From a virus, in the IMG/VR virus record IMGVR_UViG_3300027917_000046, positions 1-64,000 of that record: DNA of 64,000 nucleotides, one strand, 5' to 3'. This document shows positions 2,089-35,600 of the stretch, one piece after another. Every line of letters begins with the position of its first letter. The stretch's first letter is position 1. Under the pieces are notes generated by a model. The model had not been told where the DNA came from and did not search any database. It saw nothing but the letters and a program-made list of their open reading frames with translations. The translations under genes and the position numbers were made by a program.

Positions 2089-3207
2089 TTACTGCGCAAC
2101 GTACACGCTGATCACGCCAAAGTCTTGGACGGTCTGCGGGAAGTTGCCGTACTGGGTGAAGAATTGGGGCTTCAGGAACCCGAAGATCTTTCCGGTAGCG
2201 ATAGCTTGCTGGTTACCGTAGTCGTCGTCTTCTTCGACCCAAGTCGGCATGCCGATGTCGGCCATACCCATAGCTTGAGCACCGCAGAAGAGAACTTGAC
2301 ATCCGTCAACCAGTCCGCCCGCTCCCCACTTGCTGCCTGAGGCCAGACCACGTGTGTTATACACGTGACGGAACTCCCAAAGCTTCAAGCCGTCGAGCAT
2401 GACGTGCCCACCTTGGAACAACGGGTTACCGTCGCCACGCTTTTGAGCGTGCTGCATCGCTTGGATGTAATCCGGGTCGAGCTTCAGCTTGGACATCGCT
2501 GTCGGAGACAGGAACACGTTATACGACTCGTCTTCCCCGTTACCGCGAACACCACGGATGTAGTTTTCCTTGGCGTAGGCCTTCAGCTGAACCAACATGT
2601 TGTATGTCGGAGTGTCGGCAGCGGTTACGGAAGCTGTCGCGCCGGCGGTTTCCAGAACTTTGTCCGTTCCGTTCCAGCGCAACGCACGCCCGTTCGTCGG
2701 GGCGACAACGTCAGCAGCGTATTCCAGGTTGATGAAGTCAGAACCCACGCGGGTTCCACCATTGTTTTTGTTGCTGTAGGCAACGCCTGAAAGCGTCAGG
2801 AACGACAGCTGGTCCATCCGATCTGACAGCCAGTACGCTAGCTGGTCGCGCGAGGTCGAACGGAAGTTAACGATCGATTTCTGATCGCTCATCCGACCTT
2901 CGGACTTGTTCGCATTACGTAGCTGGTCGATACGGATAACCTTGTCGTACGCCTTGATACCTTCTTCGTTACCCTTTAGGGCACGGTCTCCGGCCACGCC
3001 GTCGCCTTCGAGATCGATGACGAGGGTCATGACGGCGCGAGCGCCTTTTTCGGTCTTCGTCAGCTCATCGATATGCTGGATCATGCTATTGGCAGATTTG
3101 CCAAGGAACTTGTTCGTAAACGACATGTTCCGAGCTTGTTTCCACAGATCGCGTGACCAGACCGTTTTCTGCTCGGTAGTTAGCCGAGTAAAGTTTGTTG
3201 TAGCCAT
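2089..3207 (-). CDS. Major capsid protein, N4-gp56/DUF4043-like
   Basis: This 372-residue protein begins MATTNFTRLTTEQKTVWSRD. It carries the signature of the N4 gp56/DUF4043 capsid family: an N-terminal helix, then a FLGKSANSMIQ segment, a GDGVAGDRALKGNEE loop and an RLxxLRNAxxxEGRMSDQ-type stretch. It would form the icosahedral shell. It has a GGAGCC Shine-Dalgarno, its own strong promoter about 130 bases upstream, and lies downstream of portal and scaffold, as expected. Length matches the family. The assignment is by recognition of motif style; a structural search would settle it. Confidence 0.85.
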   Translation of the reverse strand: MATTNFTRLTTEQKTVWSRDLWKQARNMSFTNKFLGKSANSMIQHIDELTKTEKGARAVMTLVIDLEGDGVAGDRALKGNEEGIKAYDKVIRIDQLRNANKSEGRMSDQKSIVNFRSTSRDQLAYWLSDRMDQLSFLTLSGVAYSNKNNGGTRVGSDFINLEYAADVVAPTNGRALRWNGTDKVLETAGATASVTAADTPTYNMLVQLKAYAKENYIRGVRGNGEDESYNVFLSPTAMSKLKLDPDYIQAMQHAQKRGDGNPLFQGGHVMLDGLKLWEFRHVYNTRGLASGSKWGAGGLVDGCQVLFCGAQAMGMADIGMPTWVEEDDDYGNQQAIATGKIFGFLKPQFFTQYGNFPQTVQDFGVISVYVAQ

Positions 3208-10389: not shown

Positions 10390-12546
10390 CTAAACCTTAC
10401 CGACAAATGCGATCGGTGACCCAACAATATCGGCAAACCCCACCTGAGCCTTCAAGTCGTTATCCAGCAAGGTCACGCGGTTATCTGTTTGATCCGGTGG
10501 AGAAAGTTTCGAATCAGGAGCATTCAGGTTCCCGTGCATAGCGAGGACGTTCGACGTAGCCGTCGGCTTAGTTGTTGGGTTATAGTCCAAAAAGGTGCCG
10601 ATATTGTAGTTATTCCACGCTTTCGATATATTGAACGTGGCCGTGTAATCCTGCTCATTGCTCCCTATATCCAGGTGAGCAGCCCCTGAAATAGTGTCCA
10701 CATCGATCGTGACCCCGTTCTCAGCCGTGCCCTCATCCGGGGCAATATTACCCTGAATGAAGTTAATCGTGACGTCGTCCAACGGGCACAGGCCGAGGTC
10801 GACCTTGTACTCCCGAATATAGGGTCGAAACACCTTCCACTTGGTGATATTCTCGGATCCGGACTGGACGAGGCTGTCGTCGTTCACAATCAAGCTCGCC
10901 TCCCGATCCTCAGCGAACATAACGAACGCCGCGCGATGAACCCGGGTCTCGGTGAACCCTTGGAACCGCTGGCGGAACCGATCCCACTGATAGTCGTTCC
11001 CGAATACGGACGAACATACCGTCACCAACAGCATCGTAGTCGGATCGATGTAGTAGCAGTCCGGGTGCAGTCCGTAGGGGTTGGGGAAAGTAATTGTAAA
11101 GAACTCCGAGTTCGACGGTCCTTCAGTTACCGCCAGCGAACGGGACCGGGACCCGTGGTTATTCCCCACGCTGGATCCTCGCCCGTTGGAATACCCGAAT
11201 TCTATGTTCGTATATGACGGTGAATTCTCCCCCGTGCCACCGTACAGCCTGTTCGGGTAGTTCATCGTCCATATACCAGACGACGCGTAACAACTGAACC
11301 CCGGCACTACAGGTGGGATGTTCGCCACCCTTAGACCGTCCCAAGTAACCGTTCCACCGACTACTGTAACCGGGGGCGTCGTAAACGCAGCCACCGTCCC
11401 GTAGCTCAACGTCCACCGCGTCTCGACCGGGTCCTCCCCGTCGAAGTAGACGTAGATCGGAGCATCCTGGGTGGGATACTGCAGTACCTCCGGACCTGAG
11501 GGTGCGAAAGCGTCGAGACCAGCCCATTCAGCCGAGTCCGACGGAATCCACGTCTGGCCCGTTATAAGTGGGGTAAAGACCTTGTTACTGTCCAAGTTGA
11601 CCAGGACCGCCTGCACCGTCGGTATGGCCTCGTTGTACGTAAGCGAAATCTCCCACTGGTTCATCTCATAGTGAGATTCCGGCAAATTCTCTGCCCGGCC
11701 GAGCACGATCCGTACCTTCTGCCCTGATGCGCTGAACGCCCACCCATGGTCCGTGTACCACGGAGTCCCGGCATTGGCGCCTGTGTACGGCGGAGCCATG
11801 GCCGTGGCATCCAGGACCTCTATCACGTTCTCGCGCATGCCGTAGACTTTCGCCCACCACAGGCTGGTGGTGGTTCTATACTGCTGCCAACCCGGGTTCT
11901 CAGCCAGCTCCGCGTCCGTGGGCTGGTATGTCGTTATCTGGTACGAATCACAGCAGTTCTTCTTCACCACAATCGGTGCAGCATACAACCCAAGCGATGA
12001 GATCTCAATCAGGAAGTGCTTGGTCTTGCCATCCGACAGGGTAAACTTGACGATCCCGTGCGTGCGACCGAAGCTGTGGTCGAAGGGTGCATTAGCCTCC
12101 GTGCTTGGGGGCCCTGCCACGTGGTAGCATCCTACCACCCTTCTCATTATCCCGGTGTACTTGCTGGCCTGGTTCCTTGTTATAACGGTCCCTGTGCTCA
12201 GGTCCGTGGGCGGTGTCCACTTCTTCAAGCGCTTCTGAACTGCTCCGCCAACCCTCTCGACTTCGCCGTCGTTGTAATAGGCATCATAATCCGGGTTCAG
12301 AGCTGGTCCGCTCTTCACCAACAAGAAACCGCGCCGATCCTTACATCCTCCCTTGATCCGGATCATGCTCGAGAAGTCCGAATCATAGATGTCGATCGAG
12401 TGCCCGGCTACCTCCCGCCAACTCTTGCTGATAATAGGCAGGCCCAGGTTCTCGCGCAGAGTACGCTGAATCTCGTACTGAAGTTCAGCCCACTTCTTGA
12501 TCCCGGCCGGAGTTCCCGGGTCTATTTCCCGAATACGTCGTTTCAT
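10390..12546 (-). CDS. Large virion protein of unknown role (718 aa)
   Basis: A 718-residue, aromatic-rich protein with many beta-strand-like segments and long Gly/Ser/Pro turns, and no visible membrane segment or catalytic motif. An N-terminal helical part (about 1-40, IKKWAELQYEIQRTLREN) precedes the beta body. It lies between the 62-aa basic gene, to which it is coupled by ATGA, and the portal, an unusual place for a tail protein. It may be a tail or spike protein, or a virion protein assembled with the portal vertex. I do not recognise the family. Confidence 0.7.
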   Translation of the reverse strand: MKRRIREIDPGTPAGIKKWAELQYEIQRTLRENLGLPIISKSWREVAGHSIDIYDSDFSSMIRIKGGCKDRRGFLLVKSGPALNPDYDAYYNDGEVERVGGAVQKRLKKWTPPTDLSTGTVITRNQASKYTGIMRRVVGCYHVAGPPSTEANAPFDHSFGRTHGIVKFTLSDGKTKHFLIEISSLGLYAAPIVVKKNCCDSYQITTYQPTDAELAENPGWQQYRTTTSLWWAKVYGMRENVIEVLDATAMAPPYTGANAGTPWYTDHGWAFSASGQKVRIVLGRAENLPESHYEMNQWEISLTYNEAIPTVQAVLVNLDSNKVFTPLITGQTWIPSDSAEWAGLDAFAPSGPEVLQYPTQDAPIYVYFDGEDPVETRWTLSYGTVAAFTTPPVTVVGGTVTWDGLRVANIPPVVPGFSCYASSGIWTMNYPNRLYGGTGENSPSYTNIEFGYSNGRGSSVGNNHGSRSRSLAVTEGPSNSEFFTITFPNPYGLHPDCYYIDPTTMLLVTVCSSVFGNDYQWDRFRQRFQGFTETRVHRAAFVMFAEDREASLIVNDDSLVQSGSENITKWKVFRPYIREYKVDLGLCPLDDVTINFIQGNIAPDEGTAENGVTIDVDTISGAAHLDIGSNEQDYTATFNISKAWNNYNIGTFLDYNPTTKPTATSNVLAMHGNLNAPDSKLSPPDQTDNRVTLLDNDLKAQVGFADIVGSPIAFVGKV

Positions 12547-12731
12547 GAGGCCAGCATTCTTTTCGCCTTCGCACGGATCCGTGCCTTCTCACTGGCCGAC
12601 TTGGCATGCCGGATCAGGAGTAAGGCCGCTTTAGCATGGGCTTTGTCCGGAATCGGGTATGCCCGGCGCTCCGGGACCGCGAACGTGGAACTGCGGAGAC
12701 CACGTCTTTGTTTTGCTGAGAGTTTTGCCAT
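12543..12731 (-). CDS. Small basic protein next to the virion genes
   Basis: A 62-residue protein from ATG at 12731, behind GGAAAGGAGAACC. It begins MAKLSAKQRRGLRSSTFA and continues with an AYPIPDKAHAKAAL motif and an Arg/Lys/Ala helix. This short family is widespread in tailed phages, usually near the portal or terminase, and bacterial homologues also occur. Function is not established to my knowledge. It is the first gene after the iteron-bearing region, and its stop overlaps the next ATG as ATGA. Confidence 0.8.
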   Translation of the reverse strand: MAKLSAKQRRGLRSSTFAVPERRAYPIPDKAHAKAALLLIRHAKSASEKARIRAKAKRMLAS

Positions 12732-12761
12732 GGTTCTCCTTTCCATAAGGGTTTTTTCGGT

Positions 12762-13120
12762 CTGTTACGATATGTTACGATCTTGTTACGAAATTTGTTC
12801 TTTATAATCAACGAACTGTTACACATTACCACACTTTAACTTTCATCTGCAAGTGCTTGAATCTACAGGTTGCGTTTGGTTTTATGCGACGAAATTAGCC
12901 CTTTTCTATATTATATTTATATAAAAATAAAAAAAAATAATTTTTTTTATTTACAGTAAAAGGTACACAAAGATCGTAACATAAATTCCGAAAAATTGCA
13001 TGATTCGTCTGTAGAATCAAGGTTTTAAGCCCGAAAAAAGATCGTAACAAGTCGTAACAGTTCGTTGATCTATAACGACAATTTTCGTCACAAGATCGTA
13101 ACAAGATCGTAACATTTCGT
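12762..13120. repeat. Iteron array in a long inverted repeat around an AT-rich core (candidate origin)
   Basis: Eight copies of GTTACGA or its complement occur here. Three point one way at 12764, 12774 and 12785, and five point the other way at 12974, 13042, 13052, 13096 and 13107. The flanks form an imperfect inverted repeat of about 60 bases (12762-12822 with 13054-13120), including an exact 18-base pair (12774-12791 with 13096-13113) and an exact 16-base pair (12807-12822 with 13054-13069). The spacer contains a nearly pure A/T tract at 12903-12955. No convincing gene lies here. The arrangement resembles iteron origins or partition sites. Confidence 0.7.
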
Positions 13121-13169
13121 CGCACTGTTGCAAAAATGAGACAGTGTGGTAAAAATACAACAGTAGAAA

Positions 13170-13212
13170 CCTCCTATGTACCTAGTACATTCCTCCTAGT
13201 ACATTCCTCCTA
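13170..13212 (-). repeat. Three AGGAGG Shine-Dalgarno repeats after TerL, two with ATG-TAC-TAG micro-ORFs
   Basis: Reading the minus strand, AGGAGG occurs three times from the terminase stop codon onward (13211, 13197 and 13175). The first two are each followed by AATGTACTAG, a start codon, one codon and a stop, in a 14-base tandem repeat. The third has no ATG after it. A small palindrome (ATGTAC/GTACAT) lies at the downstream end. This may hold ribosomes or protect the 3' end of the terminase message. Confidence 0.5.
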
Positions 13213-15054
13213 GGCTCCCATGTGGGTCTTGCCTTTCCCAACGCTGTTATACCCCATCTGATACCGTTTGAGTTGTTCTGCGACCGTAAGTTCCCGTCCT
13301 TTTCCAAAAGTTGCTGGCCTCGGCCTCACCGGCGGGGTCTTGTTGACCGCCATCTGGACCGTCCAGGCGAGTGAGTCGATCGTGTCGTCGTGGGCCCCAG
13401 CCGGGAACCGCAAAGCTTCCCGCATGAGGTCGTCCACCCATACGGCCCCTTTCGGGAACGTGACCTTCCCCAACTGCATTCTGGCCTGAAGCGGGCGTGC
13501 CCGAACCATCTTATCCCGAATCGGCTTGAGAATATTCTCTTCCGAGATCGAGATGTAGATGCGTGTTTCCTGCATCCGTTTCTCGAGCGCTGAACGCAGT
13601 GTTCGCCAGATCATGCCGTCTTCGGCACCGAACATGGCTTTCGGAAATTCTTTAGCCAGTTGCAAGATCTCGTCAATGATCTTGTCAGTGCTGTTCGTCT
13701 TGAATCTTACCTGCTTTACGACGTGCAGGTTATCATCCCAGTCTTGGGCAATAACTGTACCAACAGTCCAGTCGTTCGTCTGTTTCTCGCTGATAGCGAA
13801 GTCCCATGCGATGTACTGGTTGCACCGATCGATAGTCTCCCTTGTGAGGGGTTTATCGCGGTACCGGAACATATCCTTGTTGAAGTACGCTCCTTCCTCG
13901 ATAATCGGGGACTGTTGATACAGCGCTGCCCAAAACCTTAGGCCTAATGTCCGTTTAATCTTATTAAGTTGGGTAATTCCGTACCGATCCGGGTGCAACG
14001 GTTCGCCTTTTGCACGATACTCCTCATCTTCTTCCGCGATCGCTGGATAGCGGATGATTTCAAATTGGTCGACGTCTGGATCGTCCGGATTGTCTTGCAT
14101 CTCCTGCTGTAGTCGGCCCTGGAGGTCGTCATAATGCCAGCATGTCTGGATCACTAAGACGCCTCCCCCGGGCGCTAATCTTGAATACGCAGTGGAACGA
14201 TACCAGTCCCAGTGTTTGTTACGAATGTCTACTGAGTCGGCTTCTTCCGCGTTCTTGATCGGGTCGTCAATGATAAGGATGTGCGCACCTTTACCCGTGA
14301 TCGGCCCTCCGACACCTGCCGCGTTGTAGCCTCCGCCTCCGAAGCCGCTTGGAGATTGAATGCGCCAAGATCCGGCAGCCATGAATTCTGGATTAAGCTT
14401 AGTAGCGGGAAAGATTCGGCCAAACTGTGTGGTGCGGACGAGGTCTCTACAGTCACGCGAGAAGTCGAGCGCAAGGGCTTCACCGTAGGAGCAGCAGATA
14501 AATTCATGTAGTGGATTATGTCCAAGATGCCAGGCCGGGAACATTTTTGACGCGATTTGCGATTTCCCATGACGCGGTGGAACCAGCAACATGAGTCGGG
14601 GTGATTTTCCTTCTTCGACATCCTTCGAAAACTTTTCAAGGCGCGTACAGATATCATGGTGAACCCATCCTGCTTTGTAGTTTGGATGAAAACCCTTGAC
14701 AAATTCAATCAGTTTGCGACGTTGGAGCTCGCGGCGCGCAAGTTCGCGGGTGGCGGCGTCTGTTTCCAGTTTTGCGCCTTCTTCCACCACGTCTAGCTTC
14801 ACGGCCGCGGCTCGCTTACGTGCCATCTTCTGATGTTTTTTATTCAGAAGACGTTGCTTCGCGATCTTTTTAAGTTCCTCGCGAAGCATTTTCTCTTGGC
14901 GACGATGCTCTACCTTCTGCTCGAGCGTTTGAGTAACAGAATTACTCTTCACGCATGAGCGGCACTCATCATGGTGCTTGTAGAAGACAGTAGCGGGTCT
15001 GTCCTTCTTACACGTCGGACAGAATCTTGTCTTCTTCTCTTCTTGGGGTAACAT
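13210..15054 (-). CDS. terL: Terminase large subunit
   Basis: This 614-residue protein packages DNA with an ATPase and a nuclease domain. An N-terminal zinc-ribbon-like segment (CPTC and CRSC about 20 residues apart) and a basic helix precede the ATPase. Walker A is PPRHGKS (near residue 156) and Walker B is ILIIDDP (near 260). A C-terminal RNase H-like nuclease part contains IAWDFAI, FGAEDG and a final GAHDDTIDS motif. ATG at 15054 has an AGGTG Shine-Dalgarno; the codon before it is TTG. It overlaps the small-subunit gene by about 47 bases. Confidence 0.92.
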   Translation of the reverse strand: MLPQEEKKTRFCPTCKKDRPATVFYKHHDECRSCVKSNSVTQTLEQKVEHRRQEKMLREELKKIAKQRLLNKKHQKMARKRAAAVKLDVVEEGAKLETDAATRELARRELQRRKLIEFVKGFHPNYKAGWVHHDICTRLEKFSKDVEEGKSPRLMLLVPPRHGKSQIASKMFPAWHLGHNPLHEFICCSYGEALALDFSRDCRDLVRTTQFGRIFPATKLNPEFMAAGSWRIQSPSGFGGGGYNAAGVGGPITGKGAHILIIDDPIKNAEEADSVDIRNKHWDWYRSTAYSRLAPGGGVLVIQTCWHYDDLQGRLQQEMQDNPDDPDVDQFEIIRYPAIAEEDEEYRAKGEPLHPDRYGITQLNKIKRTLGLRFWAALYQQSPIIEEGAYFNKDMFRYRDKPLTRETIDRCNQYIAWDFAISEKQTNDWTVGTVIAQDWDDNLHVVKQVRFKTNSTDKIIDEILQLAKEFPKAMFGAEDGMIWRTLRSALEKRMQETRIYISISEENILKPIRDKMVRARPLQARMQLGKVTFPKGAVWVDDLMREALRFPAGAHDDTIDSLAWTVQMAVNKTPPVRPRPATFGKGRELTVAEQLKRYQMGYNSVGKGKTHMGA

Positions 15055-15478
15055 CAATCACCTTGGCATTCGCCAATCTCAACAATTCATCTTCAGTCAG
15101 CTCGGTAAGTAGCTTTTGGAGGTCCTGTTTGTTCATGTCCCGCGTGATTTTCTTTACTTCGGGGGCATAGAAGCCCAGCATCTTGCCCATTTCACGGGCG
15201 GCCTGCACGATTCCAGTCGGATCGGCCTGTAATTTGGCCAGATCAGCAGCTTCTCGCAGCATTTCGATGACCATTTCCTTCGTTATGCCTACGTTTGAAG
15301 CCGTTTCAGCCCGAACCCGAGCCAACTCCTGGCTGACTGTTTCGGATTTCTCGATTCTTTCAGCCACAGGATCCCCTCCGTTCTCGGAATATCCAGCCAT
15401 GATCGCCGATTGCTCTCTCGAGAGACCCCGCGCGCGGTGCTGAACGTACTTCGCCTGCTTTTTGGTTAATTTAGCCAT
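15008..15478 (-). CDS. terS: Terminase small subunit-like protein
   Basis: A 156-residue protein opening MAKLTKKQAKYVQHRARGLS, followed by an AIMAGYSENG segment: the helix-turn-helix pattern of small terminases that recognise the packaging site. A long central helix and a charged C-terminus follow. It directly precedes and overlaps terL. The ATG at 15478 has no Shine-Dalgarno and lies only about four bases from the predicted start of transcription of the promoter at 15489-15517, so the message may be leaderless. Confidence 0.8.
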   Translation of the reverse strand: MAKLTKKQAKYVQHRARGLSREQSAIMAGYSENGGDPVAERIEKSETVSQELARVRAETASNVGITKEMVIEMLREAADLAKLQADPTGIVQAAREMGKMLGFYAPEVKKITRDMNKQDLQKLLTELTEDELLRLANAKVIDVTPRREEDKILSDV

Positions 15479-17361: not shown

Positions 17362-17694
17362 ATGGGGAAAAATATAAAGGTAGGCGATCTGGCCTATATA
17401 TACCGCTCCGCTGCATGCTGCGGTGCGAACAACGACATTGGAAAGATCGGCCAGATAGCAGCCATCCATAGAGTAACACTGTGGTGTACTAAATGCTGGA
17501 CAGCGTACACCGGAATGTATGCAACTTGGACTAGTAGTCCTGTCGATACTTATCCCATCTACATGCTCAAACCCATTGATGGACTGAGCCAGGATGAGAA
17601 GCTCGAAGAGTCCATATTTCATCCCTATGGAGAGCACGCTCGGGTAACAGAAGAGGCAGCAAAGCCCTCGCGTCCCGTCCCACAGAAGGTGTAG
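17362..17694 (+). CDS. Cys-containing hypothetical protein
   Basis: A 110-residue protein starting MGKNIKVGDLAYIYRSAACC, with AACCGA and CTKC motifs about 20 residues apart that could hold a metal. The first half looks like a small beta-barrel (KVGDLAYI, IGKIGQIAAI). The C-terminus is charged and Pro-rich. The ATG is preceded by GAAAGGAGCAGC. No family recognised; a nucleic-acid-binding role is possible from the fold impression. Confidence 0.6.
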   Translation: MGKNIKVGDLAYIYRSAACCGANNDIGKIGQIAAIHRVTLWCTKCWTAYTGMYATWTSSPVDTYPIYMLKPIDGLSQDEKLEESIFHPYGEHARVTEEAAKPSRPVPQKV

Positions 17695-18292: not shown

Positions 18293-18379
18293 GGATGAGA
18301 CGCCCAAATGGTAGGGCACCGGGCTGTAAACCCGTGGTCGGCTAGTTCCGTGTAGGTTCGAATCCTACCTCATCCACCA
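18293..18379 (+). tRNA. tRNA-Tyr (GUA)
   Basis: An 87-base cloverleaf with encoded CCA. The 7-bp acceptor GGATGAG/CTCATCC is perfect, the anticodon loop is CTGTAAA (anticodon GTA), the variable arm is long as in bacterial tRNA-Tyr, and the T arm is GTAGG-TTCGAAT-CCTAC. It lies in the early array and would supplement host tRNA or replace tRNA cut by host anticodon nucleases. Confidence 0.95.
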
Positions 18380-20698: not shown

Positions 20699-21289
20699 AT
20701 GAAACGTCCATTTTGGTTTATGTACGCAGTCATACTGGGTACACTTTTGTTGTTTGGCAACGGTAACGCAGCTCCTCCAGTGTTTGAAGGTGGTCTCGGT
20801 TTCGGTAAGGGGCAGGGAGTAGCCTGTAATGGCCCCGCTGCGCTCATGAATCCGTTCTGTAGAGGCGTAACACCACCGTCTCCTCCGCCTCCGCCCGTAA
20901 CACCTCCGCCCGTAACACCTCCTCCTGTGACGCCTCCTCCTGTGACGCCTCCGCCCGTAACACCTCCGCCCGTAACACCTCCGCCCACGGTAACACCGCC
21001 TGTAGCACCGCCACCGCCTAGTACTACGCCGCCGGCTACAACGCCACCGAGTACAGCAGCGCCGTCATCGCAAGGTGGAAGTAATGCAACGCAGAATGCG
21101 GGCCATAGTGGCAAATCTACATTTGCCAAGGTTGTAGAAATTGGCATCGCTGCAATTACGGCCTACATCATTATCTGTATGATCGTTGAGCAGAACGATG
21201 ATGTCTCCCAGGAAGATAAAGACTACTGGTGTGGTCGAGACGAAGAGTGGGAAGGTACTCCATTCCCAGTTGACAACTCAATCGATTAG
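20699..21289 (+). CDS. Proline-stalk envelope protein
   Basis: From ATG at 20699 (GGGGAC upstream; an ATG four codons earlier is possible) this gives 196 residues. They comprise an N-terminal signal or anchor (MKRPFWFMYAVILGTLLLFG), a short domain with two Cys, a Pro-rich stalk of repeated VTPPP units (about 57-100), a Gly/Ser/Asn linker, a second membrane segment (VVEIGIAAITAYIIICMIV), and an acidic tail with one Cys. A stiff proline rod between two hydrophobic ends could span the periplasm, as unimolecular spanins do, but there is no lipobox. It starts a new unit after the terminator. Confidence 0.65.
   Translation: MKRPFWFMYAVILGTLLLFGNGNAAPPVFEGGLGFGKGQGVACNGPAALMNPFCRGVTPPSPPPPPVTPPPVTPPPVTPPPVTPPPVTPPPVTPPPTVTPPVAPPPPSTTPPATTPPSTAAPSSQGGSNATQNAGHSGKSTFAKVVEIGIAAITAYIIICMIVEQNDDVSQEDKDYWCGRDEEWEGTPFPVDNSID
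20891..20980 (+). repeat. Six tandem 15-base repeats encoding VTPPP
   Basis: The unit CCGCCCGTAACACCT or its variant CCTCCTGTGACGCCT occurs six times in a row in the order A-A-B-B-A-A. Synonymous variation keeps the peptide constant. Repeat number could change by slippage and alter stalk length. Confidence 0.85.
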
Positions 21290-22195: not shown

Positions 22196-22694
22196 ATGTA
22201 TGTACCCCGGCTGTCATCGCAGATCGAGCGGCTATTATGACATTACGATTACCGGCATCGGGGACTTCATCTTCCATTGCGATGACGTAATTCATAAAGA
22301 ATGGGCCTTTGCAAAAGAAAGGATGATTAGTGAAAGGCGAAAAAAAGAGCGCGAGGAAAAGAAAATGAGCCACTACATAGAACGATGGTGCCAAGAGCAT
22401 AAGGAATGGGACGACGATGTAGATTGCCCATCAGAAGGATGTCCGAAGTGTATCGAGGAAGGGAAATTCAAGACGCGGGCTATGCTGAAAGCGGAAGTCG
22501 AGCGGCTGACGCGGGAGCGGGATGAGGCGCAGGAGGATGCGGAGCGATATCGTAAAAAACGCGATATTGATGCCGGAGCATATGTCAGGTCCGATGCTTA
22601 TCGGAACAATCCACCGAGGGTTCGTGATTCATTGTTAGCCGCTTGGTGGGAGGCATACAACGCCGCCATTGACGCAGCACGGGAGGAGAAATGA
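22185..22694 (+). CDS. Modular Cys-rich coiled-coil protein ending IDAAREEK
   Basis: A 169-residue protein from ATG at 22185 (GGAGATCGCAA). It has an N-terminal Cys/His region (MSDECMYPGCHRR, then HCDD), a charged helix, a second Cys cluster (CPSEGCPKC), a coiled coil (LKAEVERLTRERDEAQEDAE), and the C-terminal IDAAREEK motif shared with the gene at 21663. It looks like a fusion of a zinc-binding part with the common tail module. Function unknown. Confidence 0.65.
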   Translation: MSDECMYPGCHRRSSGYYDITITGIGDFIFHCDDVIHKEWAFAKERMISERRKKEREEKKMSHYIERWCQEHKEWDDDVDCPSEGCPKCIEEGKFKTRAMLKAEVERLTRERDEAQEDAERYRKKRDIDAGAYVRSDAYRNNPPRVRDSLLAAWWEAYNAAIDAAREEK

Positions 22695-23722
22695 GTGAAC
22701 AAGTAGCCCTGTTTCTCGGACGCTTTGCCCCGTTTCATAATGGACATCTGTATGTGCTGAAACGAGCAATGCAGAAATACGATCATGTGATCATGGGCGT
22801 TTGCGGATATAACAGATCCTGTGATCCAAAAACCCCGTTCTCTCCATATGATAGAATTTGGATGATTCAAAATGCTATAGAAGGAAATTTCAAAGTTTCG
22901 TATATCTACGTAAACGATTACCCGGATAGCGATCACGAATGGGCTACTGAAATCATCAAGAGCCTAGAATTCAAGATGCCTAAAGCAAAAGTAACTATCA
23001 TTGGCGCACCAAAAGATACAGATACGGACTACTATTTGAACTATCTCTCCGAAGTAACGGGTTGGCCTTTGGACCTTATACCTTATACCACCGTCAACAT
23101 TCTCCCTAGTTCTACGCTTGTCCGCGAATTACTCTTTCACGGATCGCTTAAAGGCGAATATGTCACGGATCCTTTTGCATTTATATCTTATCTTGTTCCC
23201 CCTTCTACTTTGAAGTTTCTTCATTCTTATATCAATACATCAGAATATAAACTCATAGTTAATTGGATTGAACAAAACAGAGCTTTACGCAGTTTTCAAC
23301 GTGCAGGAGAACCTATTTTTGTAACCACAGACGCCATATTAAGAAATATCGATAGACAAATTCTTATAATTAAACGCGGTGGAGCGACGGGCCATGGGTT
23401 GTGGGCTTTACCAGGAGGATTCGCTGAACCTGACTTAACGTTAGTAGAAAACATGCGTAAGGAATTACGCGAAGAAGTAGGTGTTGATCTAAAGAATCAG
23501 AATCCAATCCATTCGTGGGTCGAAGACAAAGTTGACCGGAGTACTAGAGGACGCACCATCACGCATGTTTTCGTGTGGGAAGTAGGGGCACCAAATGTAT
23601 TCCGATCAAATGAGGCTTTAGAGTTTCGTTGGGTTTCTTTTAAGAATTTTCCAAAAGCACAGGAGTGGTTTGAAGACCATTATTTCCTTGCTCAAAAAGG
23701 ACTAATTTATGATAATAAATGA
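22691..23722 (+). CDS. Bifunctional NMN adenylyltransferase-Nudix protein
   Basis: 343 residues in two domains. Residues 1-185 form a nucleotidylyltransferase with the GRFAPFHNGH signature (His16 and His19 of HxGH) and an LPSSTLVR motif, expected to make NAD from nicotinamide mononucleotide and ATP. Residues 200-343 carry a Nudix domain with a PGGF start and KELREEVGV; two positions of the consensus box (a Glu and the Arg) are replaced. This fusion is known from bacterial NadM-Nudix proteins and from phage KVP40 NatV. The next gene supplies the substrate, making a two-step nicotinamide-to-NAD route. Confidence 0.9.
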   Translation: MSEQVALFLGRFAPFHNGHLYVLKRAMQKYDHVIMGVCGYNRSCDPKTPFSPYDRIWMIQNAIEGNFKVSYIYVNDYPDSDHEWATEIIKSLEFKMPKAKVTIIGAPKDTDTDYYLNYLSEVTGWPLDLIPYTTVNILPSSTLVRELLFHGSLKGEYVTDPFAFISYLVPPSTLKFLHSYINTSEYKLIVNWIEQNRALRSFQRAGEPIFVTTDAILRNIDRQILIIKRGGATGHGLWALPGGFAEPDLTLVENMRKELREEVGVDLKNQNPIHSWVEDKVDRSTRGRTITHVFVWEVGAPNVFRSNEALEFRWVSFKNFPKAQEWFEDHYFLAQKGLIYDNK

Positions 23723-25115
23723 AGATACTACATTGAACCCACTGTTTAGGTCGGACTCCTACAAGCACAGTCACGCACCATTATACCCTCCAGGCATTAC
23801 AGGCATGGATGCGTATATTACCGCAAGGAAGAAAGGTGCGCGTGTCATGTTGTTTGGCTTGCAGATGCACCTGCGTAAATGGCTCGAAAATATTTGGCCT
23901 ATTCAACCGTATGATGTAGCAGAGACCGCTGAATTTCTCGCAAGTCATGGAGAACCATTCGATGAAAAACCTTGGATGTACCTCATTGAAAAATACGGCG
24001 GCTATCCGCCCGTCACCATTAAAGCCATACCTGAAGGTCTTCTCGTCCCGGCTCAATGCCCACTGGTACGTATCACATGTACTGATCCGAAGCTCTTCTG
24101 GTTACCTATGTTCCTTGAGACGGATCTCCAAAGAGCCGTTTGGTACCCCTCAAGTGTCGCCAGCCAAGACCACGAACACTACCTTGCTATCAAGCGGTGG
24201 TGGGGTCTCACTTGTGATTCCTTCGCAGGAATGGAATTCGCACTACACGACTTTGGAGGGCGAGGCGTCACGTGTGGAGAACAGGCCCAAATCGGAGGCG
24301 CTGCTCACCTTGTGCACTTTAGCGGATCTGACACGTTAGAAGGAGTGTGGGCTGCAAATAAATACTACGACGCACAAATGGCCGGATTTAGCGTCCCCGC
24401 GTCCGAGCACAGTATCCAGTGCGCTTGGGGCCCCTTACGGCAAAAAGAATACTTAGAGCACGTCTTGCACACGTACGCCAAAGAAGGAACGATCGTTAGT
24501 ATTGTATTGGATGGATACGATACACTTCGGGAGGTCACTACATTATGCACTGTCCTTAAAGACAAAATCGTTGGATCTAAGGCTCTCAAGGTGGTATTCA
24601 GGCCTGACAGCGGAGACGCGATCAAGTTGGTCGGAGAAATTCTCCAGATACAAGCAGCAGTGTTTGGAACCACTCGTAATCAACGTGGTTATAAGGAGCT
24701 TAATGGTGTGGGCGTTATCCAAGGCGACGGTGTCGACAAAACTGCGATTGAAGCGATATTGGCCAGGGCGGAGGCCTTGGGCTTCGCGTCAAACAATATT
24801 GTATTTGGCTCCGGCGGCGCACTCCTCCAAAAACTTAATCGCGACACGTATGGTTTCGCGCAGAAAGCTTCCGCTGTGGAGGAAATCCACCGTTGGAAAG
24901 GAATATACAAAGATCCGGTTACAGATCCCGACAAGCGATCGGCGGCTGGCAAATTGGAGACGTTCCGCTCATTGCTCACCAGCGAGTATGTATGCCTGGA
25001 CACAATCGAAAAAATATCCGACGAGTTTGTGCCTGTCATGAGAGTTGTGTACGATAAGGGCATTTTACATAACCTAGAATCGCTTGACCTGATACGAAAA
25101 AGAGCTCGCACATGA
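23709..25115 (+). CDS. Nicotinamide phosphoribosyltransferase
   Basis: This 468-residue protein has the type II phosphoribosyltransferase signatures of NAMPT: SDSYKHSH near the N-terminus, HDFGGRGV (near 180), VFRPDSGD (near 298), IQGDGVD and FGSGGALLQK. It joins nicotinamide and phosphoribosyl pyrophosphate to give nicotinamide mononucleotide. Together with the preceding adenylyltransferase it forms the pair described as the NARP2 pathway, by which phages rebuild NAD after host defences deplete it. The genes overlap by 14 bases. Length fits the family. Confidence 0.93.
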   Translation: MIINEDTTLNPLFRSDSYKHSHAPLYPPGITGMDAYITARKKGARVMLFGLQMHLRKWLENIWPIQPYDVAETAEFLASHGEPFDEKPWMYLIEKYGGYPPVTIKAIPEGLLVPAQCPLVRITCTDPKLFWLPMFLETDLQRAVWYPSSVASQDHEHYLAIKRWWGLTCDSFAGMEFALHDFGGRGVTCGEQAQIGGAAHLVHFSGSDTLEGVWAANKYYDAQMAGFSVPASEHSIQCAWGPLRQKEYLEHVLHTYAKEGTIVSIVLDGYDTLREVTTLCTVLKDKIVGSKALKVVFRPDSGDAIKLVGEILQIQAAVFGTTRNQRGYKELNGVGVIQGDGVDKTAIEAILARAEALGFASNNIVFGSGGALLQKLNRDTYGFAQKASAVEEIHRWKGIYKDPVTDPDKRSAAGKLETFRSLLTSEYVCLDTIEKISDEFVPVMRVVYDKGILHNLESLDLIRKRART

Positions 25116-25282
25116 ACACATGGACAGCTATGATAGCTCTATGGCCTGCGTGTGGCCACTCAAAACACCCAGAAAATAGTACTCGTTCGGGAAAGTGGCC
25201 ACGCTGTAGAACTTGTCATATAAGCTACATGAAGAAATACCGCAAACGAATTAAAAAATCGCTCTCGAAAGGACAAAAGTAA
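25112..25282 (+). CDS. Small zinc-finger-like protein (56 aa)
   Basis: ATG at 25112 overlaps the previous stop as ATGA, and its own stop overlaps the RtcB ATG as TAATG, so it is coupled on both sides. The 56-residue product has a CGH/CRTC pattern, with two Cys/His pairs about 20 residues apart that could bind one zinc, and a very basic C-terminus. It may bind RNA or DNA. Its place between NAD-synthesis and RNA-repair genes is notable. Confidence 0.65.
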   Translation: MNTWTAMIALWPACGHSKHPENSTRSGKWPRCRTCHISYMKKYRKRIKKSLSKGQK

Positions 25283-26469
25283 TGAAGGTAATCCATGAAG
25301 AGGGCAGTCGACCAATTAAACTTTGGACCGATGATGTTGAAGAGAGCGCACTTGAACAACTCAAAAACATCGCTAAACTACCATTCATCGCCCCCAACGG
25401 CGTGGCGGGCATGCCAGATGTCCACTGGGGTATTGGCGCTACCGTTGGTAGCGTCATTGCCACTCGAGGCGCTATCATTCCTGCCGCAGTCGGAGTCGAT
25501 ATTGGATGCGGAATGGTTGCGGGTAAAACAAGTATTAAGCTGTCCCAGCTTCCCGATTCGTTGGCATCCCTACGTGACAGCATCGAGAGGGCCGTGCCCC
25601 TTGGTCCCGGAGGCGCCCACCGCGGTGATAGGCAATCAGGTTATCTTCCTCGAATACCATCATCCAGATTTGCTGACACGCTTTGTCACTTGGGCTACAC
25701 AAATCTTACGAAAGCTGAATCACAGATCGGTACCCTTGGATCTGGAAACCACTTCATCGAAATATGTGGAGACCAAGATCAGAACGTCTGGATTATGCTC
25801 CATTCAGGGTCGCGCGGAGTTGGAAATCGACTTGGGAGTCACTTTATTGCTGCGGCAAAAGAAGAAATGCGACGATATTTCATTAATCTCCCCGACAACA
25901 ATCTCGCCTATCTCCCCGAAGGAACACCGTTATTCGAAGAATATAGGGAAGCTGTTCTCTGGGCGCAGGATTACGCACGGATAAACCGTAATATAATGTT
26001 CGATACCGTATTGGCTCAACTTCAATTTGAGGTATTTGAGGAACCCGTTTTCATTATCGGGAAAGCAATTAATTGTCACCATAATTACGTGGAACGGGAG
26101 AGCCATTTCAATGATAACTACTGGGTCACTCGAAAGGGAGCAATCCGTGCACGAGATGGAGATCTCGGCATTATACCAGGTTCCATGGGTCAGCGTTCGT
26201 ACATTGTCCGTGGACGAGGAGTTGCCGAAAGCTTTCATTCCTGTTCTCATGGAGCAGGTCGGAGAATGGGTCGCAAACAAGCACGAGCAACCTTTACTGT
26301 TGACGATTTACGAAAGCAAACCGAAGGTGTGGAATGCAGGAAAGACGACGCTGTACTTGATGAAATTCCTGGAGCTTACAAGGACATCGACACAGTCATG
26401 GAGAACCAGAAAGATCTGGTCGAGATTATTGCAACCCTGAAACAAGTTCTTTGCGTGAAAGGAGCGTAA
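25282..26469 (+). CDS. rtcB: RtcB-type RNA ligase
   Basis: This 395-residue protein has RtcB hallmarks: AGMPDVHWGIGATVGSV, VGVDIGCGM (metal-binding Asp and Cys), LGSGNHFIEI, HSGSRG, and SCSHGAGRRMGRK, where HGAGR is the guanylylated-histidine motif. RtcB joins 2',3'-cyclic phosphate or 3'-phosphate ends to 5'-OH RNA using GTP and Mn. In a phage it could repair tRNAs or rRNA cut by host anticodon nucleases or toxins. It sits directly after the NAD pair, suggesting a combined counter-defence unit. No archease was seen. Confidence 0.93.
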   Translation: MKVIHEEGSRPIKLWTDDVEESALEQLKNIAKLPFIAPNGVAGMPDVHWGIGATVGSVIATRGAIIPAAVGVDIGCGMVAGKTSIKLSQLPDSLASLRDSIERAVPLGPGGAHRGDRQSGYLPRIPSSRFADTLCHLGYTNLTKAESQIGTLGSGNHFIEICGDQDQNVWIMLHSGSRGVGNRLGSHFIAAAKEEMRRYFINLPDNNLAYLPEGTPLFEEYREAVLWAQDYARINRNIMFDTVLAQLQFEVFEEPVFIIGKAINCHHNYVERESHFNDNYWVTRKGAIRARDGDLGIIPGSMGQRSYIVRGRGVAESFHSCSHGAGRRMGRKQARATFTVDDLRKQTEGVECRKDDAVLDEIPGAYKDIDTVMENQKDLVEIIATLKQVLCVKGA

Positions 26470-26745
26470 ATGAGGTTCATTCCCTGGTACGTTTTCGGCC
26501 TATTGGCCGCGGTGGGCATTGCGGTGACTGCTCCACAGCAACTGCCCATCGTCATATATAAGCTGTCGCTTGTGACCATTGGTCTGGTCGGCGGCTATTG
26601 GGCAGATAAAACGTTGTTTAAGAATCTTCCAAATAGACTCAAGATCACGGATCAGTTGGATCTTAATACAAATGGAGGTCTTCGGATCCTGGCACGAGCC
26701 ATCATCGTCTTGGCTGTCATTCTTGGTGTCACGCGTGGCCTATGA
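26470..26745 (+). CDS. Putative holin
   Basis: A 91-residue membrane protein with three hydrophobic segments (about 6-22, 28-47, 73-88) joined by short charged loops, including GGYWADKTLF. Size, topology and position directly before a muralytic enzyme fit a holin that permeabilises the inner membrane. It is adjacent to the RtcB stop and overlaps the next gene by ATGA. Confidence 0.75.
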   Translation: MRFIPWYVFGLLAAVGIAVTAPQQLPIVIYKLSLVTIGLVGGYWADKTLFKNLPNRLKITDQLDLNTNGGLRILARAIIVLAVILGVTRGL

Positions 26746-27401
26746 AGAAAGAACGGTCCATATGGACTGACATAGATAATGCATTGTTCAAGCTTTTGTC
26801 TGGAATATTCGTAGTATTTATAATTCTAGCTATGCTTGTTGATTGTTCAGCCCAAGCACAAGGATACCCACCATATGAATCTCTCAAATATCGTGACGAC
26901 CTCATTCGTAACGCTCGAGTCATCGGTGGACTTGGGGCGCCTATTGCACTATTTGCTGGTCAAATCCAGCAAGAGTCGGCTTGGCGACCAGATGTCTCCT
27001 CTAAGTATGCTCACGGGCTGGCACAATTCACCCCCGATACAAGCGAATGGATCTCTGGAATGTTCCCAGAGCTTCGCGAAAACCAGCCTTTTAACCCCTC
27101 TTGGGCTCTTCGAGCCCTCGTCCGCTATGACTATTGGTTAAGAGAGAGAATCCGTGGGGATGTTGATTGTGATCGATGGGCAATGGTGCTGTCAGCTTAT
27201 AACGGAGGGCTTGGTTGGCTCTTACGAGATAAGAATCTTGCCAGATCAAATGGAAATAATCCCTACTTATGGTGGGGACACGTTGAGCTGTATTCAACAA
27301 GAGCTGCATGGGCTTTTAAGGAGAATCGAGAATATCCACGTAGGATTTTCCGATGGCAACATCGTTATGAAACATGGGGACAAGGAATAGAGTGTAAATA
27401 G
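26742..27401 (+). CDS. Lytic transglycosylase-type endolysin with N-terminal signal anchor
   Basis: A 219-residue protein. A hydrophobic segment (about 18-34) near the N-terminus works as a signal anchor or signal peptide. The catalytic part follows the SLT pattern: QQESAW (Glu78), GLAQFTP and an LSAYNGG motif. It would cleave peptidoglycan from the periplasm, so holin dependence may differ from cytoplasmic endolysins. Coupled to the putative holin by ATGA. Confidence 0.85.
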   Translation: MKKERSIWTDIDNALFKLLSGIFVVFIILAMLVDCSAQAQGYPPYESLKYRDDLIRNARVIGGLGAPIALFAGQIQQESAWRPDVSSKYAHGLAQFTPDTSEWISGMFPELRENQPFNPSWALRALVRYDYWLRERIRGDVDCDRWAMVLSAYNGGLGWLLRDKNLARSNGNNPYLWWGHVELYSTRAAWAFKENREYPRRIFRWQHRYETWGQGIECK

Positions 27402-28088: not shown

Positions 28089-30428
28089 ATGAAAATAACT
28101 TTCCTTGAAGCTGAAGTACCTCTAACAAAAACTTTTACCATTGAAAATGGGCAACTCACAAAAACCGGCCATCCGAGGATAATCGATGTCACTAGCCACA
28201 CGGAGAACTACGAAACGATCGAAGAACTCCACGAACATCTTATCCGTCACGCAGATGCTGGACACAGCATGCTCAAAGGAAACGTCACTCGCCCGCTCGT
28301 TAAGGAATCTCGAGCGGGATCCACGGATCCGAATGCTCCGACGCAGATCCTATTACTTGATATGGACGGTGTGAAAGATGTCAAAGATGTTGACCACTTT
28401 ACGCGTCTTGTCGGCTTTCATGATGTGGACTACATTGCTCAGTTCAGCTGCTCTAGTGGTATTGTTGGTGATCGTGGGCTTTCTGCTCATGTCATGATGC
28501 TGTTGTCGAAGCCTACATCACCGGCCATTCTTAAACAATGGTTGATGAACAAGAACTTGACTATCCCGCAACTTCGAAACAACATCGACTTGACGAGGAC
28601 TAACAATGCTCTCAGATGGACCCTTGATGTTTCGACTTGTCAAAACGATAAGCTCATCTACATTGCTCCGCCCATCCTTGGCACAAATGTCAAAGATAAT
28701 TTCCAAGGAGATCGGATCCAACTGGTCAAGAAGTCTAAGCGGACAGTGGGAGATCTTGGTGCTGTGCCGTCCGCTGAAGCAAATAAAATCAAAGCGGAGA
28801 AAATGCTCAATGATCTACGAGACAAAGCAGGGCTCCCGAAAAGGAAGAAAACATCTTTCAAGAGTCACGGATCGATAGAATATCAAGCGAATCCAGATCA
28901 AGCCTCAGTCACGGGCATTAAGACCGAGAGAGGCTTTACGTATTTGAATTTGAATGGCGGCGACTCATGGGGATATTACCACCCGGAGAACAATCCAACG
29001 TTCATTTTCAACTTCAAAGGCGAGTCGATTTACAGAACACAAGACCTACTGCCCGAATACTGGAAGGATGTTCGTGGGAAGATCAACGAGATACATCCTG
29101 ATGCCAAAGGCAAGCTTTATCTCGCGGTTAGGGATTTCCGTACGGCAGGTTACTGGAACGGGACTTGGGAACCGAAAGCGCAGAGGTTGGACCTGGCTCA
29201 AGCGAAGTCCAAAGACCAACTAAAGGACTTTCTCAAGCAACATGGTCAGCCCGTGGGCGAGTTCATTCCGGATTGGGAAATTTATTTCCTTCCGAATGAA
29301 GAGTTCATTGTGGACGTTGAAAAGCATATTATCAATACCTTCCTCCCGTCTGACTATATGCGCAATGCGCGGAAAGTAAGTCACGAAGGATTACGCGTAC
29401 CGCCTGCTATTAAACGCCTGATCATGCACGCCGTCGGTGACGATGAGGAGTGTTTTGATCACATGATGAACTGGCTGGCATGTATCTTCCAGTTCAAAAC
29501 AAGGAGCGAGACGTGCTGGATTCTCCAGGGAGTCGAAGGGACCGGGAAAGGGCTCTTCTTAAATCGGATTTTAAGGCCTTTGTTCAAGTATGTAGTAAGC
29601 AAGCGTATGAGCGAACTGGACAGCCAATTCAATGGATACATGGAGCGCTGCCTTATCTTATGGATCGACGAAATGCAGTTGTCAGCTATGAAGTCCAGAG
29701 CAGATTCTATCGAGTCCGACTTAAAGAACTACATCGTCGAGCCAAAGCTTTCTATCAGACGTATGCACACGATGCCTTACGAGGCAGATAATTATTGCAA
29801 TCTAATCATTCCGGGGAACAAAGATGACGTCATGCACATATCTCCAACAGATCGTAGGTTCAATGTATGTCCCTACCAAGAAAATAAGTTCATTACGTCT
29901 GACGAAGAGCTTGATCAAGTGGAACGAGAGCTCCCCGCTTTTGCAGACTACCTTGCAAGCTATTCCGCGTCTAAACAGAGAGCGCGTACCGCTTTGCATA
30001 ACGAGGCCAAGAGCCGAATGACCCACATCACGGCTACTGGCCTCGAGGAGGTATGTAAGGAACTTCGTTTGGGCAATCTCCAGTTCTTCTGGGATCAACG
30101 CCCAGGTTCCGCTGTAACACAAACCAATACATCGCAGGATATAGCTGCAGGGGCGTACCTTAGATTAATGACCCAAGCAGCAAAAGGGGAATTGGAAATA
30201 GTGTCAAGAGAAGAGCTACAAGCTATCTTGGGATACACCTTGGGCCAAATACCTAATTCACCGCATAAGTTCACTTCGCTATTGAAGCATCACAAGCTGT
30301 TTATAAAATCACTTAGACGAAGAGAACAAAGCATACGCGGAGTCAGGGTTAACTGGCAGGTTTCAGACGAAATTAAGAATGAAATCCTTGGTCTCACAAA
30401 GGATATTCAGGCAATAGGTGAAGCATGA
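28089..30428 (+). CDS. Primase-helicase (AEP-like primase plus SF3/D5-like helicase)
   Basis: 779 residues. The N-terminal half has primase-polymerase-like motifs: LLLDMDG (two acidic residues), GLSAHVMMLL, and RWTLD. The C-terminal half is a superfamily 3/D5-like helicase with Walker A GVEGTGKG (near 480) and Walker B LILWIDE (near 520), as in DUF5906 proteins. It should unwind DNA and prime replication. It is the first gene behind a strong promoter and overlaps the next gene by ATGA. Confidence 0.85.
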   Translation: MKITFLEAEVPLTKTFTIENGQLTKTGHPRIIDVTSHTENYETIEELHEHLIRHADAGHSMLKGNVTRPLVKESRAGSTDPNAPTQILLLDMDGVKDVKDVDHFTRLVGFHDVDYIAQFSCSSGIVGDRGLSAHVMMLLSKPTSPAILKQWLMNKNLTIPQLRNNIDLTRTNNALRWTLDVSTCQNDKLIYIAPPILGTNVKDNFQGDRIQLVKKSKRTVGDLGAVPSAEANKIKAEKMLNDLRDKAGLPKRKKTSFKSHGSIEYQANPDQASVTGIKTERGFTYLNLNGGDSWGYYHPENNPTFIFNFKGESIYRTQDLLPEYWKDVRGKINEIHPDAKGKLYLAVRDFRTAGYWNGTWEPKAQRLDLAQAKSKDQLKDFLKQHGQPVGEFIPDWEIYFLPNEEFIVDVEKHIINTFLPSDYMRNARKVSHEGLRVPPAIKRLIMHAVGDDEECFDHMMNWLACIFQFKTRSETCWILQGVEGTGKGLFLNRILRPLFKYVVSKRMSELDSQFNGYMERCLILWIDEMQLSAMKSRADSIESDLKNYIVEPKLSIRRMHTMPYEADNYCNLIIPGNKDDVMHISPTDRRFNVCPYQENKFITSDEELDQVERELPAFADYLASYSASKQRARTALHNEAKSRMTHITATGLEEVCKELRLGNLQFFWDQRPGSAVTQTNTSQDIAAGAYLRLMTQAAKGELEIVSREELQAILGYTLGQIPNSPHKFTSLLKHHKLFIKSLRRREQSIRGVRVNWQVSDEIKNEILGLTKDIQAIGEA

Positions 30429-32930: not shown

Positions 32931-33980
32931 ATGATTCCTATGATTGTAACAAAAGACGGCATTAACTTCATGCTTGGCTCTAAGCCGTACCATGTAGCGC
33001 GAACTGATCCGCATTTTGAAGATGTGTATAATGCGGTGAAGAACGATGCTGATGACTGGGAGATTGAGGAAATTCTCAATCGTGTCAAGAACCAGCTAGG
33101 CAAACTTCAGGATCTGTCACCGCGTCTGTCGTTCGATGGCGCAGTAATTTGGTTCAATGGAGAAATACTGCGTAATTACGCAGCTGATCGTCTGCTCGCT
33201 ATGCTCGCCAGCGGCGATCCGATCGATCCGGTTGTCAACTTCCTAGAGAACCTGCTCGAGAACCCGAGTAAAACGGTGGTCGATAACTTGTACAGCTTCC
33301 TGGAACACGGCAGGATCCCGTTGACGCAGGATGGACACTTTCTGGTGTACAAGGCGATCAACAAAGACTGGACCGATATCTATACCGGAAAGTTCGACAA
33401 CAGTATCGGGGCTAAACCCGAAATGGTGCGAAACAAAGTCGACGAGGATCGGAACCGTACGTGTTCGACGGGATTTCACGTTTGCAGTTACGACTACTTG
33501 CCGCATTTTGCGCACGCGGATGGGCACGTGGTTGTCTGTAAGGTAAATCCGGCAGACGTGGTAGCTATCCCGAACGACTACAACGATACCAAGATGCGCG
33601 TATGCAGGTACGAGGTTATCAGTGAGGTCGACGAATACTACCGCAATGAAGAGAACATCCTGACCACGCAGCCTCTGTTCCACGTCGGCGGAGTCGATCC
33701 GGATTCATATGGATTCGATGACGACGAAGAGGAAGAGGAAGAGGAAGATGATGAAGAAGCATCGGCAGAAGCTGGTGATACGTACGCTATTCGCGCTCGC
33801 CGCCACGGCTGTCAAGTCTCCGAGGTTGTTGAAGATGGGATAGAAGGCTACAAGAACGCGCACACATCTGCTCGTGAGAAGTTTATTGCAGGTACTTCGC
33901 GTGGTGGTGTGGTAGCAGTAGCCGTGGTCAATGAAAATACGGGTGAGTTGATGTACACCTGGGGCCTATGGACCGCCTAA
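32931..33980 (+). CDS. rIIB-like protein
   Basis: 349 residues. The central part (LENPSKTVVDNLYSFLEHG, then GHFLVYKAI, then RTCSTGFHVCSYDYL and GHVVVCKV) matches the conserved core of rIIB-like phage proteins. An acidic run (near 262-276) and a helical C-terminus follow. It starts three bases after the rIIA-like stop, behind GAAAGGTTAACC. Together the two likely form the rII complex. Confidence 0.8.
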   Translation: MIPMIVTKDGINFMLGSKPYHVARTDPHFEDVYNAVKNDADDWEIEEILNRVKNQLGKLQDLSPRLSFDGAVIWFNGEILRNYAADRLLAMLASGDPIDPVVNFLENLLENPSKTVVDNLYSFLEHGRIPLTQDGHFLVYKAINKDWTDIYTGKFDNSIGAKPEMVRNKVDEDRNRTCSTGFHVCSYDYLPHFAHADGHVVVCKVNPADVVAIPNDYNDTKMRVCRYEVISEVDEYYRNEENILTTQPLFHVGGVDPDSYGFDDDEEEEEEEDDEEASAEAGDTYAIRARRHGCQVSEVVEDGIEGYKNAHTSAREKFIAGTSRGGVVAVAVVNENTGELMYTWGLWTA

Positions 33981-34255
33981 CCCCAGAACTAGCTCGCATC
34001 CTGCAGAAACGCATTCGTCGGGTCATAGAGAAAGCTCGCTATGACCCGGCGAGCGTTCATGATATGGAAGCGGCGGCCTACGAAGTAATCAGACCGTACT
34101 TACCATTGGAGAAGAAAGATGACACGCAGTCAGTTGATAGCAGGACTAGCAAGCATGCAGGGCAAGGACACAGGAATCGTCGTCAAGAATCAGCAGACGG
34201 AACAGGTCATGCCCATCAAGACAGTGGGTGTGGAAAAGAACCCGTTTGGACGTGA
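33968..34255 (+). CDS. Hypothetical protein (95 aa)
   Basis: ATG at 33968 overlaps the end of the rIIB-like gene. The first 50 residues (MDRLTPELARILQKRIRRVI...) form a clear charged helix-rich domain. The last 45 (Ser/His/Gly/Gln-rich) overlap another gene in a different frame and look unlike protein. The gene may end in a variable tail, or its real 3' end may have been altered by a frameshift. Confidence 0.5.
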   Translation: MDRLTPELARILQKRIRRVIEKARYDPASVHDMEAAAYEVIRPYLPLEKKDDTQSVDSRTSKHAGQGHRNRRQESADGTGHAHQDSGCGKEPVWT

Positions 34256-35524: not shown

Positions 35525-35600
35525 TGCACGGTAGTATTCACGGTGAGTACACCCGGCTGTTAACCGGAGGAGCTTGGTTCGATTCCAAGCCGTGCAGCCA
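35525..35600 (+). tRNA. tRNA-Asn (GUU)
   Basis: 76 bases with encoded CCA. Acceptor TGCACGG/CCGTGCA, anticodon loop CTGTTAA (anticodon GTT), T arm CTTGG-TTCGATT-CCAAG. The fold is regular apart from a G discriminator base. Confidence 0.92.

Follow-up and report, generated by a model that had tools for sequence, protein, structure and literature searches.

Introduction

To our knowledge, the site where replication starts is not known for most lytic phages other than the model ones. In the SaPI satellite islands, the origin has an A/T-rich segment with a set of short iterons on either side, which the helicase reads with its C-terminal part, and the initiator is encoded close to the origin. In P4, the iterons lie at two distinct loci, ori and crr. 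The short repeats of the P4 origin are bound by the winged helix of the primase-helicase alpha, the primase of which is a Toprim-type bacterial primase (PMC4234260). For pRN1, no iterons were found, and a stem-loop origin was proposed for this type of protein, including those of phages (PMC4234260). For the primase-polymerase of the Nitratiruptor phage NrS-1, the 8-nt primase recognition sequence TTTGGTTA was proposed as the start site (PMC8718748, PMC7102993). In PLE, a satellite of ICP1, the DNA-binding domain of RepA and the origin covary between variants (PMC8263062).

The DNA analyzed here (64,000 nucleotides, referred to as the window) comprises positions 1 to 64,000 of the IMG/VR record IMGVR_UViG_3300027917_000046. 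The full record of 67,077 bp belongs to a podovirus related to Pseudomonas phage KPP25, with identities of 36.5% for TerL, 43% for the portal protein and 41% for the primase-helicase. It encodes RIIA/RIIB, a family A DNA polymerase, an ATP-dependent ligase, an SNF2-type helicase and a 779-aa DUF5906/VapE-like protein. The presence of RIIA/RIIB and the finding of no integrase suggest a lytic phage. NadM/Nudix-like and NAMPT-like genes lie side by side at 22691–25115, a pair which we take to serve NAD salvage, as in the NAD+ reconstitution by which phages are known to counter NAD-depleting defences. A gene for an RtcB RNA ligase is located at 25282–26469, and the genome also carries tRNA-Tyr and tRNA-Asn genes (18293–18379 and 35525–35600). 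Based on sequence comparisons, we propose that the intergenic region 12732–13209 is the iteron-type replication origin of this phage and that it is read by the primase-helicase encoded at 28089–30428, a reading to which we assign a probability of roughly three in four.

Results

The Intergenic Region and Its Setting

The putative origin as a whole (12732–13209, no strand assigned) occupies a gap of 478 bp that holds all eight clustered iterons and an A/T-rich core. As described in the initial annotation, it is the sole long noncoding gap of the left, minus-strand arm, between terL and the portal region, with no other gap in this arm exceeding 151 bp. The right flank is formed by the gene for the terminase large subunit (terL, 13210–15057, minus strand; PHROG 38, E 6e-115). 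To the left follow, also on the minus strand, a 62-aa ORF (12543–12731) with weak likeness to DUF6582 below the Pfam cut-off, a 718-aa ORFan and the portal gene. For the ORFan (10390–12546), which adjoins the putative origin, no match was found in PHROG, Pfam, PDB or the phage collection, its only match being a contig of the same virus. The gap sequence was identical in a second contig of this virus. Elsewhere, 75 bp (17530–17604) are missing from the 99.9% identical contig L003, i.e., a small indel between strains. Two tandem repeats were also seen: a perfect 14-bp repeat, CCTAGTACATTCCT, with 2.4 copies at the end of terL (13181–13213), and CCTCCGCCCGTAACA within an ORF (20886–21003), the unit of which ends in the iteron-like GTAACA.

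Exact copies of the octamer TCGTAACA/TGTTACGA start at 12763, 12773 and 12784 on the minus strand and at 12974, 13042, 13052, 13096 and 13107 on the plus strand, together spanning 352 bp (12763–13114). The left array (12763–12791) has spacings of 10 and 11 bp. On the right, a core-proximal iteron (12974–12981) is followed by two copies at 13042–13059 and by a group at 13085–13114, in which the exact copies at 13096 and 13107 are joined by the one-mismatch copy TCGTCACA at 13085. Only two further copies occur outside the gap in the rest of the 64-kb window (14217 and 63087). The whole-window count of 10 compares with a chance mean of 1.5 and was reached in none of 100 shuffles. Among 2000 dinucleotide-shuffled versions of the 478-bp gap, the octamer occurred at most twice, and no 8-mer of any kind exceeded four copies, as compared to the eight observed. 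Thus, the eight iterons of the initial annotation, three left and five right, were confirmed. Since all left iterons lie on the minus strand and all right ones on the plus strand, both sets point outward from the core.

The flanks form an inverted repeat with exact arms of 20 nt (12772–12791 and 13096–13115) and of 16 nt (ATCAACGAACTGTTAC at 12807–12822, plus strand, with its partner at 13054–13069), both of which sit inside a 50-nt pair that is 84% complementary. The inverted repeat noted initially is therefore real and its 16-base block exact, while the block given as 18 bases is 20 bases long. Between the flanks lies the A/T-rich core (12901–12962), a proposed DNA unwinding element. With 93–95% A/T, it bears out the nearly pure A/T tract of the initial annotation and includes the 60 bp with the highest A/T content in the record; 93% over 60 bp is reached nowhere else in the 67,077 bp.

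A second cluster of TCGTAACA was not present in the record, bases 64001–67077 included. Scans of the region returned no RNA family, no terminator and no sigma-70-like promoter, shuffled sequences giving 1.2 of the latter. The turning points of the GC skew fell 1–10 kb away from the clusters, were inconsistent in sign and did not locate an origin. GC skew here also tracks gene orientation, and this check, proposed in the initial annotation, neither supports nor refutes an origin.

Conservation of the Iterons in Related Phages

Conservation was analyzed by 8-mer clustering carried out without prior knowledge of the word. The main noncoding cluster proved to be TCGTAACA in the window (8 copies), in KPP25 (8) and in the metagenomic phages G006 (7) and G018 (13, plus a second cluster). 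G007 carries eight copies of the one-base variant TCGGAACA, and L006 carries ten copies of TCGTAAC between terL and the next gene. More diverged relatives have other words, namely TTACACTT in G012, TGGGACAT in G004 and a ACTACACTT-like word in L005, in which the cluster has the same position as in the window. Hence, the search for the repeat in related genomes, by which the initial annotation would have had its reading judged, revealed the same octamer, and the origin reading was not refuted.

The genes next to the cluster are not the same in all phages. The neighbor is terL in the window, L006 and L005, and a gene of the SLOG family in G006. Early genes adjoin it in KPP25, and in G018 it lies near the gene of a giant virion protein. 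These differences argue against a single role as promoter or packaging site. KPP25 contains two clusters (26394–26825, in L171, and 58257–58542), as does G018 (2717–3024 and 33704–34020), whereas the window genome has one. In both phages, the two clusters are 0.496 of the record length apart, and one of them lies near the 3' end of the giant virion-protein gene. Since this neighbor is common to KPP25 and G018, the two-cluster arrangement was probably inherited rather than acquired independently.

The T-rich core and the AAGATCGTAACA that comes after it are conserved. The window (12940–12981, plus strand), both G018 clusters and both KPP25 clusters can be aligned over a T-run, a short TGTA-like word (ACAGTA in the window) and AAAGATCGTAACA, which is represented by AAGAATCGTAACA in the second KPP25 cluster. 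In the window, in G018 and in the first KPP25 cluster, the iterons nearest to the core face away from it on both sides.

As an exception to this conservation, no cluster was found in phiA008, which has an initiator (26% identity). AP1 and MW202615, two portal relatives that are absent among the initiator matches listed, have no cluster, in keeping with the proposed link between initiator and iterons. The phage collection gave no match when it was searched at the DNA level for the window region. The KPP25 annotations show nothing at either cluster, and in the literature consulted no report was found on these repeats or on the origin of KPP25-like phages.

The Candidate Initiator

The candidate initiator is a 779-aa primase-helicase encoded on the plus strand at 28089–30428, about 15 kb from the iterons, with an SF3-type helicase (DUF5906) and a predicted C-terminal winged helix (residues 681–757). 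A homologue was present in every long genome of the family that was examined. In a profile search, the protein matched the NrS-1 primase (E 1.6e-54, profile positions 393–681). Structural comparison agreed, with a Foldseek match to the C-terminal region of NrS-1 (E 7.7e-24) and a VIA match to NrS-1 (Z 27.5, rmsd 7.5, 378 aligned). SaPI5 PriRep1 was matched with Z 15.7 and 13.2 (7ola and 7pds), and poxvirus D5/E5 and ASFV helicases also matched, with scores below that of NrS-1.

For residues 681–757, the AlphaFold secondary structure follows the winged-helix topology H-S-H-H-S-S. On its own, this domain gave weak structural matches, the best being the NrS-1 C-terminus (Z 4.0, rmsd 3.6, 76 aligned), followed by the winged helices of ORC and Cdc6/Orc1 (Z 3.8), and Foldseek with the C-terminal domain alone returned no confident match (E above 0.1). 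The origin-binding domain of P4 alpha is absent among the matches listed, which is not evidence of a difference. Residues 1–330 were not covered by any sequence or structure match. D91-x-D93 and H134 are invariant among homologues, as expected for AEP motifs, and it is solely by these conserved motifs that residues 1–330 are regarded as a putative primase.

The recognition-helix region of the window protein reads KFTSLLKHH, and the helices KFTSLLKHH, KFTSLIKHH and KFTSMLKHH go with TCGTAACA. The helix is nearly unchanged in KPP25 and G018, which share this octamer. The slightly changed KLTSLLKHQ of G007 pairs with TCGGAACA, KFTRTAGKF of G012 with TTACACTT, and SFGKRLGRN of G004 with TGGGACAT. 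In this small sample, covariation of recognition helix and iteron word is suggestive. It is not clean, since G006 combines TCGTAACA with the less similar helix KATKFLAHK. Fragments of 17.7–37.5 kb from two further lineages (G010; G011 and G013, near-identical in the initiator protein) encode a helix of the KFTSLLKHH type but contain no TCGTAACA cluster; there, the predicted octamer was not confirmed.

Iteron Arrays in Other Elements

Pattern scans for TCGTAACA were extended across other viruses and genomes. Arrays directly adjoin primase-helicase genes in four elements that are less closely related to the window or not at all: in L109 (CHC2 zinc finger, DUF927 and Cch-type HTH), L075 (D5_N and DUF5906), L100 (Prim-Pol) and L149 (VapE-like). 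Only L075 matches the family profile, and weakly so (E 6.9e-6). Many direct-only arrays (e.g., L146, L156 and L159) and the mixed-strand array of L167 were not counted, as they looked like tandem repeats and lay in coding or unrelated contexts. Because many other matches are of this nature, the association with primase-helicase genes stays a lead.

Two further arrangements were observed. In L056, L048 and L097 (also L083), which are unrelated to the window, direct-only arrays lie just upstream of a small zinc-ribbon gene. L147 (97–172) and L153 (4600–4697) have CTCGTAACACTCGTAACACTCGTAACACC followed by an A-rich tract in common, an origin-like layout; family searches of the L147 record found no initiator.

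Discussion

The region resembles several of the known systems without matching any of them in full. As in P4, short repeats lie at the putative origin and the candidate initiator is a primase-helicase with a predicted winged helix, and the two clusters of KPP25 and G018 recall ori and crr. In contrast to the Toprim-type primase of alpha, the window protein is NrS-1-like, the iteron sequence differs from that of P4, and the KPP25 and G018 clusters are half a genome apart. As at the SaPI origin, two iteron sets surround A/T-rich DNA, and the candidate initiator is structurally similar to SaPI5 PriRep1; however, the window derives from a 67-kb phage rather than a satellite island, its candidate initiator gene lies 15 kb from the iterons, and the iteron word is different. 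With the NrS-1 protein, it shares a homologous helicase and C-terminal region, but TTTGGTTA is not conserved at the predicted origins, and NrS-1 has no TCGTAACA cluster. As a conserved start, TTTGGTTA was rejected: it is absent from KPP25 and G007 and off-cluster in most genomes. ORF904 of pRN1 is a PrimPol, SF3 helicase and winged-helix protein, a combination that is predicted for the candidate initiator as well, but for which a stem-loop was proposed, in contrast to the iteron origin predicted here. PLE is alike in having an initiator/iteron module, but its initiator is of the RepA_N type and its three iterons are semi-palindromes of about 30 bp.

Since the same octamer is clustered in relatives beside different genes, the region is most likely the site where the primase-helicase of the phage starts DNA copying. 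In the proposed mechanism, the winged-helix C-terminus would bind the iterons, and the SF3 helicase domain would assemble as a hexamer and melt the A/T core. The N-terminal primase domain would then begin synthesis, to be continued by the family A polymerase. The outward-pointing arrays on either side of the core may allow loading of the helicase on each side and, hence, bidirectional forks.

Of the roles first considered (origin, centromere-like site and multi-site operator), the comparative evidence favors the origin, and operator, centromere and packaging site are less likely. A phage regulator bound to the repeats might control leftward transcription of the head genes: the gap lies directly 5' of the leftward genes that begin at 12731, and the clustering of the sites, spaced by helical turns, would suit a cooperative regulator. 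We consider such an operator or enhancer quite unlikely, as the cluster adjoins other genes in the relatives and occurs twice per genome in KPP25 and G018, no sigma-70-like promoter was predicted in the region, and the conserved A/T core would be left unexplained. The element could nevertheless serve a dual use, as origin and promoter. A centromere-like partition site bound by a ParB/ParR/TubR-type protein is highly improbable. Sites such as parC and tubC are arrays of short repeats, and their spacing is comparable to the 10–11 bp seen here, but no partition-like protein was found among the proteins scanned (part of the gene set), and the phage appears to be lytic. Equally remote is a packaging (pac) or terminase recognition site: the element adjoins terL in the window, L006 and L005, but the KPP25 clusters are kilobases away from terL and half a genome apart, and G018, too, has two of them.

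The region may also be an iteron origin as proposed but be read by another phage protein or by a host factor. A shared host factor could explain why the octamer adjoins primase-helicases of different families, and the isolated winged helix has only weak structural matches. This we regard as unlikely, since, for most of the small sample, a change in the iteron goes with a change in the helix and the arrays of the other elements adjoin the primase-helicase gene itself. The reading of the region as an origin served by the primase-helicase is thus preferred. It is possible, although doubtful, that TCGTAACA is a shared origin word for the winged-helix tails of several primase-helicase families (NrS-1/DUF5906, D5-like, VapE-like and DUF927/Cch-type), and that Kochitakasuvirus-like genomes are served by two such origins half a genome apart.

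For proteins that combine PrimPol, SF3 helicase and winged helix, a P4/SaPI-style iteron origin is thereby predicted. The prediction brings with it a testable correspondence between recognition helix and iteron, and the element is carried by a cultured phage, KPP25. If it is true, the octamer would make origins easy to search for, both in other phages and in integrated elements.
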